Below are positions 3,026-39,581 of a stretch of 64,000 bases of DNA, piece after piece. The stretch's first letter is position 1. Every line of letters starts with the position of its first letter. The stretch covers positions 144,052-208,051 of the forward strand of contig DASWIS010000031.1 in assembly GCA_036397555.1 (NCBI GenBank), written 5' to 3'. Under the pieces are notes generated by a model. It did no database searches. It was not told where the DNA came from and saw nothing but the letters and a program-made list of their open reading frames with translations. The position numbers were made by a program, and so were the translations under genes. This stretch comes from Candidatus Zixiibacteriota bacterium (lineage in GTDB: Bacteria > Zixibacteria > MSB-5A5 > WJJR01).

Positions 3026-4192
3026 ATGAACAGACGCGCAAGGGCAGTATCCTGTGAACGGACTCCCTGGAGTATGTTGCTGCTGATCGCCCTCGGAATC
3101 GTGGCGGCGGGAGTATTGCTGGGATGTCAGGGATCGGATGGCGATGGGGCCACGGGATCGCTGCAACCGAACGCCGAATCCGCGGCCCGCTTCGGCGGAT
3201 TCCGGATGGCGCCTCCATCTCTGGAGCAAGTGAAGTCGGCCGTCGCGCTCACCGAAGACCAGACCGCGAGGATGGCCGTGGCGCTCGGCGACTGGGATGA
3301 GGCAATTGCGCGCCGTCAGGAAGAAAGGCGGGCCTCACGCGCGGAGGACCAGCGTGGTCGCGCATGGCCTGGTGATCGCAGCTTCTCCCGGCAGCCGATG
3401 CCGCAATTCCTGTTGGCGGCGTCCGATGTTCTCACCGTCGAACAGTTCGTCGCGTTGACCGAACTGTTGGCGGCGCAAAAGGAAGATCGAGCGCAAACGC
3501 GCCGCAGCGCACTCGACAAAAAGCGGGATCGCATCCAACGATCGCAGGAGGATTCTCGACCGCGCGGCGAACGGATTCTCGGTGAGTTCTCCGAGACCCT
3601 GAATTTGAGCGAGATGCAGCAAAACGACATTGAACAGGCGTTCGCGGCGATGCGCGAGCAGATGCGCGCGCTGCGTGAAGCCCGCCGGTCCGACTGGCGC
3701 GATACGCGCGAAGAGTCCCGTACGACCCGCGAGGCGCTCGATGCGCGCATCCGCGAAATCCTCACCGATGAGCAGTATCGGCAATTGGAGGAATCACGAT
3801 CACAACGCCGGGACGAGCGACGGCAACAAATCGAATCCTTCCGTCGGGACCGTCTCAGTGACCGCCTTGAGTTTCTCACCGAAATTCTGGATCTGAACAC
3901 GGATCAATTGCAGCAGGTGCGTTCCATTCTCACGCGGGCCGATGCCGAACGCACCGGCCTCTGGCAGCCCGGTCGTGGGAAAGTTGACGATCGGGCGGTC
4001 AGGCGCGAGGCATTCGACGCCGTCCGCGACCGTGCCAATGAACAGATTCGCGACGTCCTCTCAGCCGAGCAGGAGGTGGTGTATCAGGCATTGAGAAACC
4101 TCGAACCGGAAGGCCGCGGGCCGCGCTTTCAGGGCGCACCGCAGGCCGCACCATCCGGGGGGAATGGCCGACAGACCGGCATGGTCGGCTGA
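3026..4192 (+). CDS. Spy/CpxP/ZraP-like LTxxQ-repeat lipoprotein
   Basis: Predicted lipoprotein of 388 residues. A basic N-terminus and hydrophobic segment (about 17-33) end in the lipobox LLGC with Cys34. The mature part is highly charged, helical and rich in Arg, Glu and Gln, with six motifs of the LTxxQ type: LTEDQ (75), LTVEQ (136), LNLSEMQ (192), LTDEQ (246), LNTDQ (290) and LSAEQ (345). Spy, CpxP and ZraP are small periplasmic chaperones or metal-binding stress proteins with two such motifs. This protein looks like a fused, membrane-anchored multi-repeat version. The start was chosen because GGAGG lies 7 bases upstream; an ATG at 3008 lacks such a site. It is probably expressed from the sigma-54 promoter and cotranscribed with the next lipoprotein gene. 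Confidence 0.85.
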   Translation: MNRRARAVSCERTPWSMLLLIALGIVAAGVLLGCQGSDGDGATGSLQPNAESAARFGGFRMAPPSLEQVKSAVALTEDQTARMAVALGDWDEAIARRQEERRASRAEDQRGRAWPGDRSFSRQPMPQFLLAASDVLTVEQFVALTELLAAQKEDRAQTRRSALDKKRDRIQRSQEDSRPRGERILGEFSETLNLSEMQQNDIEQAFAAMREQMRALREARRSDWRDTREESRTTREALDARIREILTDEQYRQLEESRSQRRDERRQQIESFRRDRLSDRLEFLTEILDLNTDQLQQVRSILTRADAERTGLWQPGRGKVDDRAVRREAFDAVRDRANEQIRDVLSAEQEVVYQALRNLEPEGRGPRFQGAPQAAPSGGNGRQTGMVG

Positions 4193-4244
4193 GTGTCAAA
4201 GCCGTCACACCGGTCGAACTGATGATCCATTTCGGGAGATAAAA

Positions 4245-5345
4245 ATGAAACGATGGACAGTTCAGACGCTCGTGGCTCCGTTGCTGTTCGGAGCCGTGCT
4301 CTTCGGTGGCTGTTCACAGCGCCCATCATCGGGAACAGCCATCGACGACGGCGCGCTGTCGCTCGAGGCGCCGTACGGCGGATACACGGCAACGAACGAA
4401 TCGCCGCAATTCGGCGAGATGCTCTCCCCATCAGCATTTGAAGAGTCGGAACCGGCATTCGATGGACTGGTCGAGTCGGATGAGTGGGACCGCCTGAGTT
4501 CCGCCGCGGGCGCGACGGTTTATCTGGTCGCCGTGCGTTGGGGCATGCTGGATGGAGACTCCACCGTCACGATGGCGACTGACTGGTCCGGCTCGGCCGC
4601 CGTATCGCACGGCATCATCGGCGTCCGCCGATTGATCCGATTCGAACGCGCGCAGGACCATCTTCTTGGTCCACGCACCAGCCGGCAGTTGGTCGAGTGG
4701 GCGTCGCAGACGACTGTTCACTACGACGGCCTGCTCCTGACAATTGTTGATCCGCCCGCGACCAATGCCGACGTCGCCGACGACGAAGGCACATTGAGCA
4801 TCTCGGCCGGAGAATACTCTCAGACATTTCTGTTTTCAGAGCTTGCCGAACTCGACTTGCTGGTCGATGTCGACAATCTCGGTAATCAGGTCTCCATCGA
4901 GTCACGTTCCGGCGCGGTGCATCGCTGCGGCGGCGGACCGACCAGCGGCGTCTGGGCGTTTGACGACGATCATGTCTCCGGCCACTTTCTCGGCGCCTGG
5001 ATGTCCGCCGACGGTGCGGTCGCCGGTCACGTACGCGGACATTTCGGCGTGCACGGTGACGCGCAGTTGTTTTATGGCAAGATCATCGGACTTGATGGCG
5101 AGTTCCGTGGCTACCTCCGCGGTCACTGGTGGCGGGGCGATACCGATCGCCCCCACGGCGGATTCGAAGGAGAGTGGATCGCCGCTGACGGGCATCCCTT
5201 CGGCATCATTCGCGGGCGATGGCACGCGGGACGCAACAGCGATGACGCTGATTCCGATAACGACCGGCAGATGCATGGTTTCTTCGCCGGGTGGTGGGTC
5301 AAGTTCTGTCCCGAAGACCCGCCCGACAAACCCGACAGCCCGTAG
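4245..5345 (+). CDS. Lipoprotein with C-terminal G-x-W repeats, function unknown
   Basis: I do not recognise this 366-residue protein. It begins with a lipoprotein signal (LFGGC, Cys23). A central part of mixed strand character spans about 85-225. The C-terminal 110 residues (about 244-351) are four to five degenerate repeats of the form F-x-G-x-W, ADG, then a glycine-rich turn: SGHFLGAW, GHVRGHF, GYLRGHWW, FEGEWIAADG, FFAGWW. They recall MORN-like strand repeats but match no family I can name. Two cysteines (228 and 355) bracket the repeats and could form a disulfide. The start is supported by GGGAG 6 bases upstream. The gene follows the LTxxQ gene by 52 bases and ends just before a strong terminator, so both belong to one operon. 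Confidence 0.8.
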   Translation: MKRWTVQTLVAPLLFGAVLFGGCSQRPSSGTAIDDGALSLEAPYGGYTATNESPQFGEMLSPSAFEESEPAFDGLVESDEWDRLSSAAGATVYLVAVRWGMLDGDSTVTMATDWSGSAAVSHGIIGVRRLIRFERAQDHLLGPRTSRQLVEWASQTTVHYDGLLLTIVDPPATNADVADDEGTLSISAGEYSQTFLFSELAELDLLVDVDNLGNQVSIESRSGAVHRCGGGPTSGVWAFDDDHVSGHFLGAWMSADGAVAGHVRGHFGVHGDAQLFYGKIIGLDGEFRGYLRGHWWRGDTDRPHGGFEGEWIAADGHPFGIIRGRWHAGRNSDDADSDNDRQMHGFFAGWWVKFCPEDPPDKPDSP

Positions 5346-33679: not shown

Positions 33680-33714
33680 TCGGATAGCTGCGCGACTGAA
33701 TCGCCCCTATCCGA
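33680..33714. terminator. Hairpin between convergent SpoIID and mazG genes
   Basis: TCGGATAG pairs with CTATCCGA over a 19-base loop. It overlaps the mazG stop codon and has no strong T-run on either side, so termination is only possible. Confidence 0.3.
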
Positions 33715-34525
33715 CAACCTTCTTCGCCGCCTCCCACAACACATCCAGTTCGGCCAGACTCGCCTCGCCCAATCTCTTGCCGGTTTTCGGAAGGTGCTTT
33801 TCGATGTATTGAAATCGCCGAATGAAACGCCGGTTGGTTTTTGTCAGCGCCGTCTCGGGGTCGATGCCCAGATGACGCGCGAGATTCACCAGCGCAAACA
33901 GCAGATCGCCCAATTCGTGCTCCACCTCCTGCTTGCGCCGTCGCCGACCCTTGCGGCTCTTCAGCGAACGGCGCAGCTCATTCTCTTCCTCCGCCACTTT
34001 ATCGAGCACGGCCAGCGGCTCGTCCCAGTCAAAGCCGAAACGCGCCGTCTTTTCCTGAAGTCGAAATGCTTTCAGCAGCGCCGGCAAACTCGACGGCACC
34101 CCGTCCAATGCGCCGCGCGACTCCCCGTCGGTTTTTGACTCCTGAATCTTCAACTGCTCCCAGTTGCTCAGCACCTGGCGCGCCGACAGGCGCCGCTTCT
34201 TCTCGAACACATGCGGATGCCGCGCGATCAGCTTGCGACAGATGTGATCGGTGACGTCGTCGATGCTGAACCGCTTGCGTTCGCTGCCCAACTGCGCGTG
34301 GAATACAACTTGCAACAGCAGGTCGCCGAGTTCCTTGGACAATTCGTCCATGTCGCGCTTCTGAATCGCATCGGCGACCTCGTAGGTTTCTTCAATCAGA
34401 TAGGGGAGCAGCGACTGATGATTCTGCTTGCGATCCCATGGACAGCCGCCCGGCGCGCGCAAGCGGCCCATGATGGCGACCAGATCATTGAAGCTGTACT
34501 TCTTTGGGTGTGGGCGGCGAGGCAT
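33707..34525 (-). CDS. mazG: Nucleoside triphosphate pyrophosphohydrolase MazG
   Basis: House-cleaning NTP pyrophosphatase of 272 residues with two MazG repeats. The first has GGCPWDRKQNHQSL, LIEETYEVADAI and KELGDLLLQVVFHA. The second has EEENELRRSL and HELGDLLFALVNLARHL. These provide the EExxE/ExxD metal-binding sites. Length is typical of full bacterial MazG. It is convergent with the SpoIID-like gene, 32 bases apart. Confidence 0.95.
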   Translation of the reverse strand: MPRRPHPKKYSFNDLVAIMGRLRAPGGCPWDRKQNHQSLLPYLIEETYEVADAIQKRDMDELSKELGDLLLQVVFHAQLGSERKRFSIDDVTDHICRKLIARHPHVFEKKRRLSARQVLSNWEQLKIQESKTDGESRGALDGVPSSLPALLKAFRLQEKTARFGFDWDEPLAVLDKVAEEENELRRSLKSRKGRRRRKQEVEHELGDLLFALVNLARHLGIDPETALTKTNRRFIRRFQYIEKHLPKTGKRLGEASLAELDVLWEAAKKVVG

Positions 34526-34666
34526 AGGAGTGAAAAATCGAATCTCAATGGAATATTACGCTGCTATCGCGTGTAATCCATACGAATGTCGCGTCAAAGG
34601 GCGCATTGGTGGGGCGTCCCCAAGTCGCGAAGTCGCCAATGGTGACCGAATTTGTCGGAATCGGGC

Positions 34667-34850
34667 CGGTGACGCTGCTTCGCCGCCGATTCCGTTTGAC
34701 AAGCCGCTGGAGATGCCGAACTTGAAGCCGATCAGGCAGAAGAATGGAAGGGAGCTGGATTGCGGTCTATGGCAAGTGGGCTCTCGTCTCTCCTGACGTG
34801 CATGGCGGTCTGTGCCGTTCTCGCCGGCTGCGCTGGCTGCACGGAGGAAC
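34667..34850 (+). repeat. Duplicated segment, copy 1 (leader plus signal peptide)
   Basis: About 185 bases nearly identical to 35775-35960. They cover the untranslated leader and the signal peptide codons of the two propeller lipoproteins, and the match fades after the polyproline tract. A perfect TTGACA is conserved in both copies, but no good -10 accompanies it. Confidence 0.85.
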
Positions 34851-35728
34851 GGACCGTGGCGGGGCCACCTCCACCCCCGCCGCCTCCACCACCGCAACTC
34901 GGCTACAGCGATGGATTTCCTGCTTGGTCGCCCGATGGGAGAACGGTTGCATATGTATCCGCCGAAACCGACTCGAATCAGATCAATATTCGAGCCTATA
35001 TCCGACTTGTCGACGTCGGGACCTACGACACGACTACGATTCTACGAGATGATCAGATGTTCGTCTTCGACCTGGCCTGGAGCCCCGATGGGCACTGGCT
35101 GTTGTTATCCACGGAAGTTGGCATCTTCAAGATGCTGGCAACCGGAGACAGCCTGACGCTCCTGAAGGTCGGAGAGTTTCACGTTTCAGCGAGCTGGTCT
35201 TCCGTCAGCAACAGGATATTCTTCGGGATCAACGGCGGATCCGAGGGCGGGATATACTCGATGCAGCCGGACGGTTCAAACCTTCAAAGGTGGACCTATC
35301 CAGCATCGGGGGTCATGCAATGCCCGTATGTTTTTCCGGACTCGGATACGCTCGTCGTACAAAGTTACGACGCAAACGGCGATTACTGCATTGCGCTCTA
35401 CTACCCTCACGATGTGCTGCTTGAAGAGGTCTTGGCGTGTGGACTGCCCTTGGTCGCCCACCCCCGCCCGGCACCGGATCAGAGGAGTGTCTTTTTTGTC
35501 GGATTCGACACGGCTCAAGAGATTCAGCGCATTTACAATCTCAAGAGGGAATTCGGTGTGTCAACTCCTTTGACGGGCGCAACGAGTCAGAATCCCTTCA
35601 GCGTTTCGCCGGACGGAAATTATATTGTCTATCACGACGCAGCGAGGACACGCGGGCTACAGATAATCAGCATTCGTACTGGACAGGTGTTCCAACTCAC
35701 GCGCAAGGATGGACAGTCGGTGCATTGA
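34760..35728 (+). CDS. Polyproline-linked beta-propeller lipoprotein, copy 1
   Basis: Secreted lipoprotein of 322 residues. The signal ends LAGCAGC; a linker of exactly ten prolines (about 36-45) precedes a TolB/PD40-like propeller. Blades are marked by FPAWSPDGRTVAYVS, LAWSPDGHWLLLS, YSMQPDGSN and FSVSPDGNYIVYH. Function is unknown; such propellers usually bind proteins or glycans. It starts with TTG where copy 2 has ATG, with an internal ATG three codons on, so it may be translated less efficiently. It is a tandem duplicate of the next gene, with a 1109-base period. Confidence 0.82.
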   Translation: MRSMASGLSSLLTCMAVCAVLAGCAGCTEERTVAGPPPPPPPPPPQLGYSDGFPAWSPDGRTVAYVSAETDSNQINIRAYIRLVDVGTYDTTTILRDDQMFVFDLAWSPDGHWLLLSTEVGIFKMLATGDSLTLLKVGEFHVSASWSSVSNRIFFGINGGSEGGIYSMQPDGSNLQRWTYPASGVMQCPYVFPDSDTLVVQSYDANGDYCIALYYPHDVLLEEVLACGLPLVAHPRPAPDQRSVFFVGFDTAQEIQRIYNLKREFGVSTPLTGATSQNPFSVSPDGNYIVYHDAARTRGLQIISIRTGQVFQLTRKDGQSVH

Positions 35729-35774
35729 TGCGCCGAGATTGGGGGTAACATGTTCAGGCAATGGAGTTGTCGGA

Positions 35775-35960
35775 CCGGTGACGCTGCTTCGCCGCCGATT
35801 CCGTTTGACAAGCCGCTGGAGATGCCGATCTTGAAGCCGATCAGGCAGAAGAAAGGAAGGAAGCCGGAATGCGGTCTATGGCAGGTGGGCTCGGGTCTCT
35901 CCTGACGTACATGGCCACATGCGCGGTTCTCGCCGGCTGTGTGGGATGCACGGAAGAACG
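35775..35960 (+). repeat. Duplicated segment, copy 2 (leader plus signal peptide)
   Basis: Partner of 34667-34850; the leader differs by one indel and a few substitutions. The conservation of non-coding leader sequence suggests recent duplication, gene conversion or a shared regulatory element. Confidence 0.85.
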
Positions 35961-36816
35961 GACGGTGGTCGGTCCGCCGCCACCCCCGCCTCCGCCCCCT
36001 CCGAGCCCGAAAGGTCTCGATGCGTGTCCCGCTTGGTCGCCTGACGGTCGGACGGTGGCCTATTGGGCTGAAGAACAGTCTTCAACGCCTTACTTGTACA
36101 ACACGTTCATACGGCTGGTAGATGCGGAGTCAAGAGAGATCACGACAATCTGCGATGAGTTTCAGTTCGCCCTCAATATTGATTGGAGCCCTGACGGTCG
36201 CTGGCTTCTGTTATCGGGGGATAGAGGAATATGGAAGATACTCGTTGGCGGCGACAGCTCAACGGTGCTGATGGACGGTTCATATGCCTCGGCAAGTTGG
36301 TCGAGAGTCAGCGGTCGGATCTTCTTCTCGAATGAGCATGGCTCCGCGGGCGGAGTGTACTCCATGAATCCCGACGGTACTGACGTGATCCGCCATACAT
36401 CCAATGATTCAGATTATGTCTCGTCTCCGCATGTGTTTCCCGACTCAGATTCAATGGTCGTGCTGGTTAACGGAGCGGGCTATCGCGATTGCATCGCTCT
36501 GCTGTCGACCGGGGAGATGTCTCCGCGAGATACAATTCATTGTGACACCCGGACAATCGATAATCCGCGGATGAGTCCCGACCATGGATCCCTGTACTTT
36601 ACCGCCTACGATTCTCAACTGAGTTCCTACAGAGTCCTTCAACTCCACAGACTCTCACAGTCACTGAGGCCCCTAGCCGTCTCAGCGTGGACTCCGTTTG
36701 GATTGTCACCAGACGGAAGATTCATAGTCTATTCCGATACTCGTAGCTCACGCGGGCTCCAGATACTCAAGATCGAGACCGGCCAGATATTCCAATTGAC
36801 GCCAGGCTATCAGTGA
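35869..36816 (+). CDS. Polyproline-linked beta-propeller lipoprotein, copy 2
   Basis: Paralogue of 315 residues. It has the same signal peptide pattern (LAGCVGC), the same ten-proline linker and the same PD40 blades: CPAWSPDGRTVAYWA, IDWSPDGRWLLLS, YSMNPDGTD and FGLSPDGRFIVYS. The propeller sequences have diverged far more than the leaders. ATG start with GGAAGG upstream. Proline codons in the linker differ between copies while the count is kept, which hints at selection on linker length. Confidence 0.83.
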   Translation: MRSMAGGLGSLLTYMATCAVLAGCVGCTEERTVVGPPPPPPPPPPSPKGLDACPAWSPDGRTVAYWAEEQSSTPYLYNTFIRLVDAESREITTICDEFQFALNIDWSPDGRWLLLSGDRGIWKILVGGDSSTVLMDGSYASASWSRVSGRIFFSNEHGSAGGVYSMNPDGTDVIRHTSNDSDYVSSPHVFPDSDSMVVLVNGAGYRDCIALLSTGEMSPRDTIHCDTRTIDNPRMSPDHGSLYFTAYDSQLSSYRVLQLHRLSQSLRPLAVSAWTPFGLSPDGRFIVYSDTRSSRGLQILKIETGQIFQLTPGYQ

Positions 36817-36926: not shown

Positions 36927-39581
36927 ATGAGCGCCATCGAACTACCCAAGAACTACGATCCTCGCAGCGCCGAGACACGCTGGCTGCAAGAGTGGCAGGA
37001 CAGACGCTATTTCCACGCCGATCCAAAGTCCCGAAAGCCCAAATACACGATCGTGATCCCGCCCCCGAACGTCACCGGCATCCTGCATCTGGGCCACGCG
37101 CTCAACAACACGATGCAGGATGTGATGATCCGTTACAAGCGCATGTCGGGATTCGAGGCCGAGTGGCTGCCGGGCATCGACCATGCCGGCATCGCCACTC
37201 AAGTCGTCGTGGAAAAACAGGTGATCAAAGAGGGCGCCACCCGCGAAGCGTTGGGACGCGAGAAGTTTTTGCAACGCGTCTGGGACTGGAAGAAAAAAAA
37301 CGGCGACACGATCCTCGAGCAATTGCGGCTGATGGGCTGCTCCTGCGACTGGGAACGCAGCCGCTTCACCATGGACGAGGGCCTGTCGAAGGCGGTGCTG
37401 GAAGTTTTCGTCCGTCTATACAACAAAGGTCTCATTTACAAGGGGACGTACATCGTCAACTGGTGTCCGCGCTGCGGCACCACCCTCTCCGACGATGAAC
37501 TCGAACGCGAAGACCGCGATTCCTCGCTCTGGTACATCCGTTACCCCCTGGAGGACGGCTCCGGGCACATCGTGATCCCGACCACGCGTCCGGAGACGAT
37601 GCTCGGCGACACCGCCGTCGCGGTCAATCCCCGGGACAAACGCTACAAGAAGCTCATCGGCAAAAAGGCAATTCTGCCGTTGATGAACCGCGTGTTGCCG
37701 ATCATCGGCGATGCCTACATCGACATGACGTTCGGCACCGGCGCGATGAAAGTCACTCCCGCGCACGATGCGAATGACTTTGAAATCGGGCGTCGCCACT
37801 CCCTCGATTCGATCAAGGTGATCGACCCCGACGGCACGATCAACTCGACGGGCGGCGCCTACGCCGGGCTGGACCGCAGCGAAGCGCGCCAGAAGATCAT
37901 AGCTGATCTTCAAGCACAAGACCTCCTGGAGAAGACCGAACCCTACAAGCTGTCCGCGGCCATCTGTTATCGTTGCTCGACCATCATCGAGCCGTATCTC
38001 TCCGAGCAGTGGTTCGTCAAGATGTCCGAGTTGGCGCCGCCCGCGATCGCGGCGGTCACTTCCGGACGCATCCGGTTTCATCCCGAGCACTGGTCGAAGG
38101 TGTACCTCCACTGGATGGAGAACATCCACGATTGGTGCATCTCGCGGCAGTTGTGGTGGGGACACCGCATCCCGGTCTTCTATCACAATGACAACGGCTC
38201 GGTTCATGTCGGTCCCAACCCGCCCAACGCCGCACTATATCGTCAGGATGAAGACGTCCTCGACACTTGGTTTTCCTCGTGGCTCTGGCCGTTTTCGACT
38301 TTCGGCTGGCCGGAGAAGACCGATGAGCTCAAACAGTTCTACCCGACCCAGTCTCTTTTCACCGCCTCGGAGATCATCTTCCTCTGGGTGGCGCGGATGG
38401 TCATGGCCGGGTGCGAATTCATGGGTGAGATCCCCTTTTCCGACGTCTACATCCACGGTACCGTGCGCGACACGCAGGGACGGCGCATGTCGAAGTCGCT
38501 GGGCAACGGCATCGATCCTTTGGATGTCATCAACGAACACGGCGCCGATGCGCTGCGTCTGTCGCTGATGCTGGCGGCTCCCGAAGGACGCGATCCGCTG
38601 ATCGGCCCGAATACGTTCGAGCTCGGACGCAACTTCGCCAACAAGCTCTGGAACGCCGCGCGACTGGTGTTGGCCAATCAGGGCGACAATCCCGAGCGGG
38701 TCGCGCTGGAGCCGGATTGGGACGACAACGCGCTCGCCATGCCCGACCGCTGGATTCTCAGCCGCCTGTCGCGCACGATCCGCGATGTGTCCGCCCAGCT
38801 CGATGAATTCCGATTCAACAGCGCATCAAAGGCGCTGTATGATTTCATTTGGGCCGAGTTCTGCGACTGGTACCTCGAACTGGTCAAACCCCGATACGCG
38901 GGCGACGACGCCGCCGACCGTCGCACGGCGACGACTGTGTCGCTGTATGTCCTGCAACACATCGTCCGCCTGCTGCATCCGCTGGCCCCGTTTGTGACCG
39001 AAGAGTTGTGGCAGCATGTGCGACCCATGCTGCAGGGCGCGCCCGATCACGTGACGATCAGCGTCTGGCCCCAAGCCGGCGAGCAACGCATCGATGACGA
39101 GTTGGAAGAGGCGATGAGCCAGGTCTTCGCCGTCATCAATGCGATCCGCAGCGTGCGCTCCGAGATGAAGATTCCCGCCGGCCGCCGCATCGATTGTCTG
39201 ATCCGCGCCGACCGCACCAGTCTCCTGCGCCACCTGCGCACCTACGCCGACAACGTGCGGATCCTCGGGCGCATCGAAAACCTGACCATCGACAAACAGG
39301 TCAACAAGCCGATTCCGAGCGCCTCGGCGGTCATCCGCGATGCCGAGATATTCATTCCACTTGAAGGAGTGGTCGACTTGGCGGCCGAACGGCGCCGGTT
39401 GGAGCGCGACCTCGAACATCACTCGACACAACTGGAAAAGATCAACCGCAAGCTCAGCAACGATGATTTCCTCGCCAACGCCCCCGCCGACGTCGTCGAG
39501 CGCGAGCGCGCCAAGCGGGAAAACTTCGAAAAGATCGTCGCCCGCATCCAGTCGAACCTCGAACAGTTGGTCGGCTGGTGA
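36927..39581 (+). CDS. valS: Valyl-tRNA synthetase
   Basis: Charges tRNA-Val. The 884-residue class I synthetase has PPPNVTGILHLGHALN (the HIGH box as HLGH, 54-57) and a CP1 editing domain with TTRPETMLGDTAVAV. It also has the KMSKS loop as RRMSKSLGN, an anticodon-binding domain and a C-terminal coiled-coil arm (about 815-884). A run of eight A at 37293-37300 encodes KKKN early in the gene. Single-gene transcription is likely. Confidence 0.97.
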   Translation: MSAIELPKNYDPRSAETRWLQEWQDRRYFHADPKSRKPKYTIVIPPPNVTGILHLGHALNNTMQDVMIRYKRMSGFEAEWLPGIDHAGIATQVVVEKQVIKEGATREALGREKFLQRVWDWKKKNGDTILEQLRLMGCSCDWERSRFTMDEGLSKAVLEVFVRLYNKGLIYKGTYIVNWCPRCGTTLSDDELEREDRDSSLWYIRYPLEDGSGHIVIPTTRPETMLGDTAVAVNPRDKRYKKLIGKKAILPLMNRVLPIIGDAYIDMTFGTGAMKVTPAHDANDFEIGRRHSLDSIKVIDPDGTINSTGGAYAGLDRSEARQKIIADLQAQDLLEKTEPYKLSAAICYRCSTIIEPYLSEQWFVKMSELAPPAIAAVTSGRIRFHPEHWSKVYLHWMENIHDWCISRQLWWGHRIPVFYHNDNGSVHVGPNPPNAALYRQDEDVLDTWFSSWLWPFSTFGWPEKTDELKQFYPTQSLFTASEIIFLWVARMVMAGCEFMGEIPFSDVYIHGTVRDTQGRRMSKSLGNGIDPLDVINEHGADALRLSLMLAAPEGRDPLIGPNTFELGRNFANKLWNAARLVLANQGDNPERVALEPDWDDNALAMPDRWILSRLSRTIRDVSAQLDEFRFNSASKALYDFIWAEFCDWYLELVKPRYAGDDAADRRTATTVSLYVLQHIVRLLHPLAPFVTEELWQHVRPMLQGAPDHVTISVWPQAGEQRIDDELEEAMSQVFAVINAIRSVRSEMKIPAGRRIDCLIRADRTSLLRHLRTYADNVRILGRIENLTIDKQVNKPIPSASAVIRDAEIFIPLEGVVDLAAERRRLERDLEHHSTQLEKINRKLSNDDFLANAPADVVERERAKRENFEKIVARIQSNLEQLVGW

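Follow-up and report, generated by a model that had tools for sequence, protein, structure and literature searches.

Probable segmental gene conversion at the 5' end of an old tandem pair of genes for predicted propeller lipoproteins

In a genome assigned to Candidatus Zixiibacteriota, we analysed a stretch of 64,000 nucleotides (henceforth the window) that contains two adjacent genes for predicted lipoproteins with a propeller domain (Table 1). The pair is flanked upstream by a mazG-like gene on the minus strand (33707-34525) and downstream by a valS-like gene on the plus strand (36927-39581), both named from reading their translations. We consider it likely that the pair arose by an old tandem duplication and that its 5' end was homogenised much later by segmental gene conversion. 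In the sequence comparison three zones differ: the leader and about the first 15 codons are alike as DNA, codons 24-45 are alike as protein, and the propeller shows an old divergence whose silent sites are saturated.

Table 1. Positions of the tandem genes and their parts in the window.
Feature	Position	Strand	Remarks
Copy 1	34760..35728	+	predicted lipoprotein with propeller domain, 322 aa, starts with TTG
Copy 2	35869..36816	+	predicted lipoprotein with propeller domain, 315 aa, starts with ATG
Copy 1 leader, non-coding part of putative homogenised tract	34654..34759	+	90/94 nt equal to copy 2 over 34666-34759
Copy 2 leader	35767..35868	+	compared with copy 1 leader
Shine-Dalgarno-like GGAAGGGAG ahead of copy 1 TTG start	34746..34754	+	direct reading
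Shine-Dalgarno-like GGAAGGAAG ahead of copy 2 ATG start	35855..35863	+	direct reading
Copy 1 putative signal peptide	34760..34828	+	putatively homogenised to about codon 15; LAGC lipobox (by eye), Cys is codon 24
Copy 1 ten-proline linker	34865..34894	+	
Copy 2 ten-proline linker	35974..36003	+	
Copy 1 TolB-like propeller	34895..35725	+	PD40 3.8e-10; all-beta model, TolB top match
Copy 2 TolB-like propeller	36004..36813	+	PD40 5.2e-11

Three zones of similarity between the two copies

The sequence-only reading of this DNA, made before the present analysis, had described nearly identical leaders and signal peptides ahead of diverged propellers, and the alignments bear this out. The leaders (34666-34759 vs 35775-35868) are identical at 90 of 94 positions. 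Once a 6-nt gap flanked by TCGG repeats is allowed for, identity reaches a few bases farther upstream, to about 34654. Signal codons 1-23 encode 19 identical residues out of 23. When rates were compared across leader, linker and propeller, as that reading had proposed, three zones differed. Early in the signal (codons 2-15), 38 of 42 nucleotides are identical, fourfold sites are equal at 9/9 and the differences are all amino-acid changes (dN 0.145, dS 0), followed by 18 of 24 identical nucleotides in codons 16-23. In codons 24-45, i.e. the stretch after the Cys and the ten prolines, first and second codon positions agree at 42/44 and fourfold sites at 7/16 (dN 0.044, dS 1.6). Finally, the propellers share 119 of 270 residues (44%) and 414 of 810 nucleotides, and their fourfold sites are equal at 17 of 62, which is the chance level given by base composition (0.27); since silent sites are saturated, dN/dS is undefined there.

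A model of total identity with one break gained 48.4 log units, a value reached in 0 of 1000 shuffles, so that chance does not account for the pattern, and placed the break at 34882, inside the linker. The repeat formed by copies 1 and 2 was the sole direct repeat of at least 40 nt found in the window. Both genes were found as open reading frames with the different start codons first reported, TTG and ATG, and reading of the sequence places GGAAGG(G/A)AG five bases before each; the TTG of copy 1 is a credible start because its Shine-Dalgarno-like site is spaced as for the ATG of copy 2. The pair neatly displays three natural modes of sequence evolution side by side: DNA homogenisation in the leader, protein-level constraint with free codons in the linker, and old divergence in the propeller.

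An old duplication with a recopied 5' end

In the proposed sequence of events, a gene for a propeller lipoprotein would first, long ago, have been duplicated in tandem. Much later, about 150 bp, comprising the leader with its ribosome-binding site and the first 15 or so codons, would have been copied from one gene to the other by segmental gene conversion or by an unequal exchange with the same effect. Later changes would account for the present differences in the tract, namely 4 of 94 bases in the leader, 4 of 42 in codons 2-15 and the base that distinguishes the TTG and ATG starts. The lipobox region and the ten-proline linker would lie beyond the tract, both maintained by ordinary purifying selection at the protein level.

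Within the pair itself, two observations favour conversion, which is the better supported of the two options offered by the sequence-only reading. First, silent and non-coding similarity at the 5' end (leader 90/94, fourfold sites of codons 2-15 9/9) is far above that of the rest of the pair (propeller 17/62), and after one and the same duplication a non-coding stretch is not expected to stay alike longer than silent sites do, unless it is constrained or recopied. Second, the changes in codons 2-15 all alter amino acids, unlike what selection on the protein would produce, and codons 24-45 show the opposite pattern. Against this, identity falls off gradually, from 38/42 to 18/24 and then to 22 codons whose likeness is mainly at the protein level, so that it is uncertain where the tract ends on its 3' side.

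The earlier reading also held that the binding part diversifies. What the comparison shows is only an old divergence of the propellers, with synonymous sites at chance and no diversifying selection seen. For the same reason we regard as scarcely credible a young duplicate pair in which the propeller alone came under rapid positive selection: this superficially fits a conserved 5' part joined to a divergent binding domain, but positive selection on the protein does not bring fourfold sites to chance.

A pair in a sister genus alike at its 3' end

Genome G004, from another genus of the same family as the source, carries its own tandem pair (G004:C102:5421-6236 and 3749-4558, minus strand). Over the last 39 codons its copies are identical at 112 of 117 bases, with fourfold sites equal at 21/22 vs 24/64 over the propeller; at the 3' end, 126 of 128 nucleotides are identical in a run that continues about a dozen bases past the stop. 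The 5' parts are unlike, i.e. this pair is homogenised at its 3' end only. When the 3' segment is compared with a third paralogue in the source genome, fourfold sites agree at 11/20 for both G004 copies, and we therefore take the protein to be conserved there and the DNA identity to be local to the pair. This gives a partial view, for the G004 pair, of copies within a genome grouping together in the putatively converted segment. Since one pair is homogenised at its 5' end and the other at its 3' end, recombination between neighbours fits better than a rule about leaders. Within a few kilobases of the G004 pair we observed three protein-kinase-like open reading frames (G004:C102:1-14000; named from translations). 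The two assemblies are in draft form (35 and about 110 contigs), and chimaerism in them may have contributed to the pattern.

The third paralogue (within G000:C1:173-3982), which adjoins a transposase-like open reading frame near the end of its contig (also named from translation), shares 49 of 86 fourfold sites (0.57) with the downstream G004 copy and 20 of 71 with the upstream one. This closest cross-genus pair showed no meaningful similarity upstream of the genes; leaders in the propeller lipoprotein family thus decay freely. The tandem pair, with a fourfold identity of 0.27 over the propeller, is more diverged than these two genes; if rates are alike, the tandem duplication probably predates the split of the closest cross-genus pair.

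No orthologue of the tandem pair was found in 132 genomes of the class, and the pair with its leader is carried by one genome only among them; members of the wider family (E up to 1e-15) occur in 7 of the 132, the source genome included. A first scan of contigs, before profiles were used, found no relative, and a profile scan retained 80 of 251 relatives, at 23-40% identity and from many phyla. We also inspected the DNA before valS in six relatives. In four of these mazG was found, either no more than about 250 bases from valS across an empty gap (G001 and G003) or with other open frames in the gap (G002 and G006), and none of the six has a propeller match before valS. The corresponding gap in the source genome (34526-36926) holds the lipoprotein pair, so gene content here varies among relatives. 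The pair has probably either moved to this site in the source lineage or been lost in the others.

Variable gene content is also what one might expect if two different propeller genes had each recently acquired a copy of one leader through recombination, in a capture of promoter and signal, which would give the same 5' identity. We judge this very unlikely. Among the relatives found, neither propeller has a nearer one than its neighbour (44% vs about 30% with any other). In the lipobox region and the ten-proline linker the copies agree in protein sequence while their codons have diverged, so these parts were common to both genes before the DNA was homogenised.

The leader as a candidate regulatory element

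The other option raised from the sequence was selection on the leader. In a wider form, strong selection at the sequence level on the leader and signal start, acting on a promoter, an RNA element or a translation signal, could have kept the 5' ends alike without any conversion. An identical TTGACA hexamer in both leaders (34696-34701 and 35805-35810) and the well-placed Shine-Dalgarno-like sites agree with this, and retention would benefit both genes. Yet a promoter-like pair was not called in either leader, neither leader matched Rfam at E up to 1, and four leader fragments folded no better than their shuffles (z 0.50 to 1.97), with best folds that differ between the two leaders; the Rfam and folding results led us to reject an RNA element in the leader. 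Moreover, 90 unchanged bases out of 94 exceed what such elements need, the signal codons have amino-acid changes but no synonymous ones, and the sister-genus pair is homogenised at the opposite end. We therefore find selection of this kind unlikely.

A search of the genome for further leader copies, also suggested by the sequence-only reading, returned nothing beyond the two places ahead of the tandem genes. In a broader DNA search the list grew to 23 places, of which the other 21 were short and at chance level (E 0.17 and above), and we rejected the leader as a repeated or mobile element. It was absent from all 131 other genomes of the class (with at most six candidates scored per genome), i.e. 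present in 1 of 132, the source. Among 58 relatives searched with an E limit of 0.01, four genomes besides the source showed matches, which were short (23-40 nt). The absence from the class, together with the ordinary folding and the 3' homogenisation in G004, speaks against selection on the leader. The pair serves as a warning that a leader conserved between paralogues should not be read as a regulatory element.

Protein architecture and the ten-proline linker

Both proteins have the same order of parts: a short N-terminal signal, a Cys within LAGC (residues 21-24 in both copies; lipobox read by eye), a GCTEERTV-G stretch, ten prolines and the propeller. The PD40 family of Pfam matches with 39.9 and 42.6 bits (curated cut-off 20.9). 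An AlphaFold2 model built from a two-sequence input is all-beta, with 24 strands, no helix and a mean pLDDT of 67.4; by strand count the predicted propeller is roughly six-bladed, a number made uncertain by that pLDDT. The best 18 Foldseek rows against the PDB are all TolB (TMq mostly 0.63-0.67, one 0.43), and a profile search of PDB sequences, which used the same family alignment as the profile scan of genome contigs, also returns TolB. The likeness to TolB (PDB 2hqs, 1crz and others) thus consists of the top fold matches (TMq 0.67, 18% identity), the profile matches and the PD40 repeats. The pair differs from TolB in having a predicted lipoprotein signal and a polyproline spacer where TolB has its N-terminal domain, and in sitting between mazG-like and valS-like genes, outside any tol-pal cluster. 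Among the 9 and 6 Pfam families listed for the two proteins, none was the TolB N-terminal domain, and residues 1-50 of both contain the signal, lipobox and prolines.

As the sequence-only reading had it, each copy has exactly ten prolines, written with different codons (6 of 10 differ). At their first and second positions the proline codons are equal at 20/20, vs 330/540 over the propeller (one-sided Fisher 7e-5), which argues for conservation of the linker at the protein level, although short motifs as conserved as this are also found within the propeller. The suggested selection on the linker is supported by this retention of prolines under diverged codons; lying apparently outside the converted tract, the linker fits ordinary purifying selection, and with two copies the exact count of ten could reflect simple inheritance. 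The genome has just three sites with eight CCN codons in a row, two of them in these genes, and we rejected polyproline runs as a genome-wide habit; a backwards control pattern gave an equal count, as expected from a nearly symmetrical pattern. The third such run in the DNA, of eight or more CCN codons, lies at G000:C8:417794-417825 (minus strand).

A polyproline II spacer of ten residues is stiff and about 3 nm long. Elongation factor EF-P, which helps ribosomes through proline runs, is encoded once in the genome. From the order of parts we infer that both proteins would be anchored in the membrane through a lipidated Cys, with the stiff spacer holding the propeller off the membrane for binding of a partner, to which the genes of the neighbourhood gave no pointer.

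Comparison with known conversion systems

The tandem pair has counterparts among duplicated genes in other bacteria. Segmental gene conversion is documented for the outer-membrane paralogues babA and babB of Helicobacter pylori, which resemble the present pairs in having near-identical ends and a divergent middle (PMC4552749). The present case differs from that description in that two adjacent lipoprotein genes are involved, one end is affected per genome and no phase-variable repeat was seen. One could go further and suppose that tandem pairs of this family repeatedly exchange ends (the 5' expression and secretion module here, the 3' end in the other genus), like a small two-cassette diversification system. 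We give this idea little credence; if true, repeated exchange would keep diverged binding domains coupled to a common expression module.

For duplicate genes of prokaryotes under concerted evolution, high similarity between paralogues at both synonymous and non-synonymous sites is described as the mark of gene conversion (PMC6053082). The pair described here shares with those duplicates a similarity that extends to silent sites, and differs in that a short gene end is affected while most of the gene has diverged. As we read it, the tandem pair is a further instance of the known segmental conversion between paralogues, each step being of a known kind, and copying of DNA from one gene to the other is known to preserve a partial likeness between duplicated genes.
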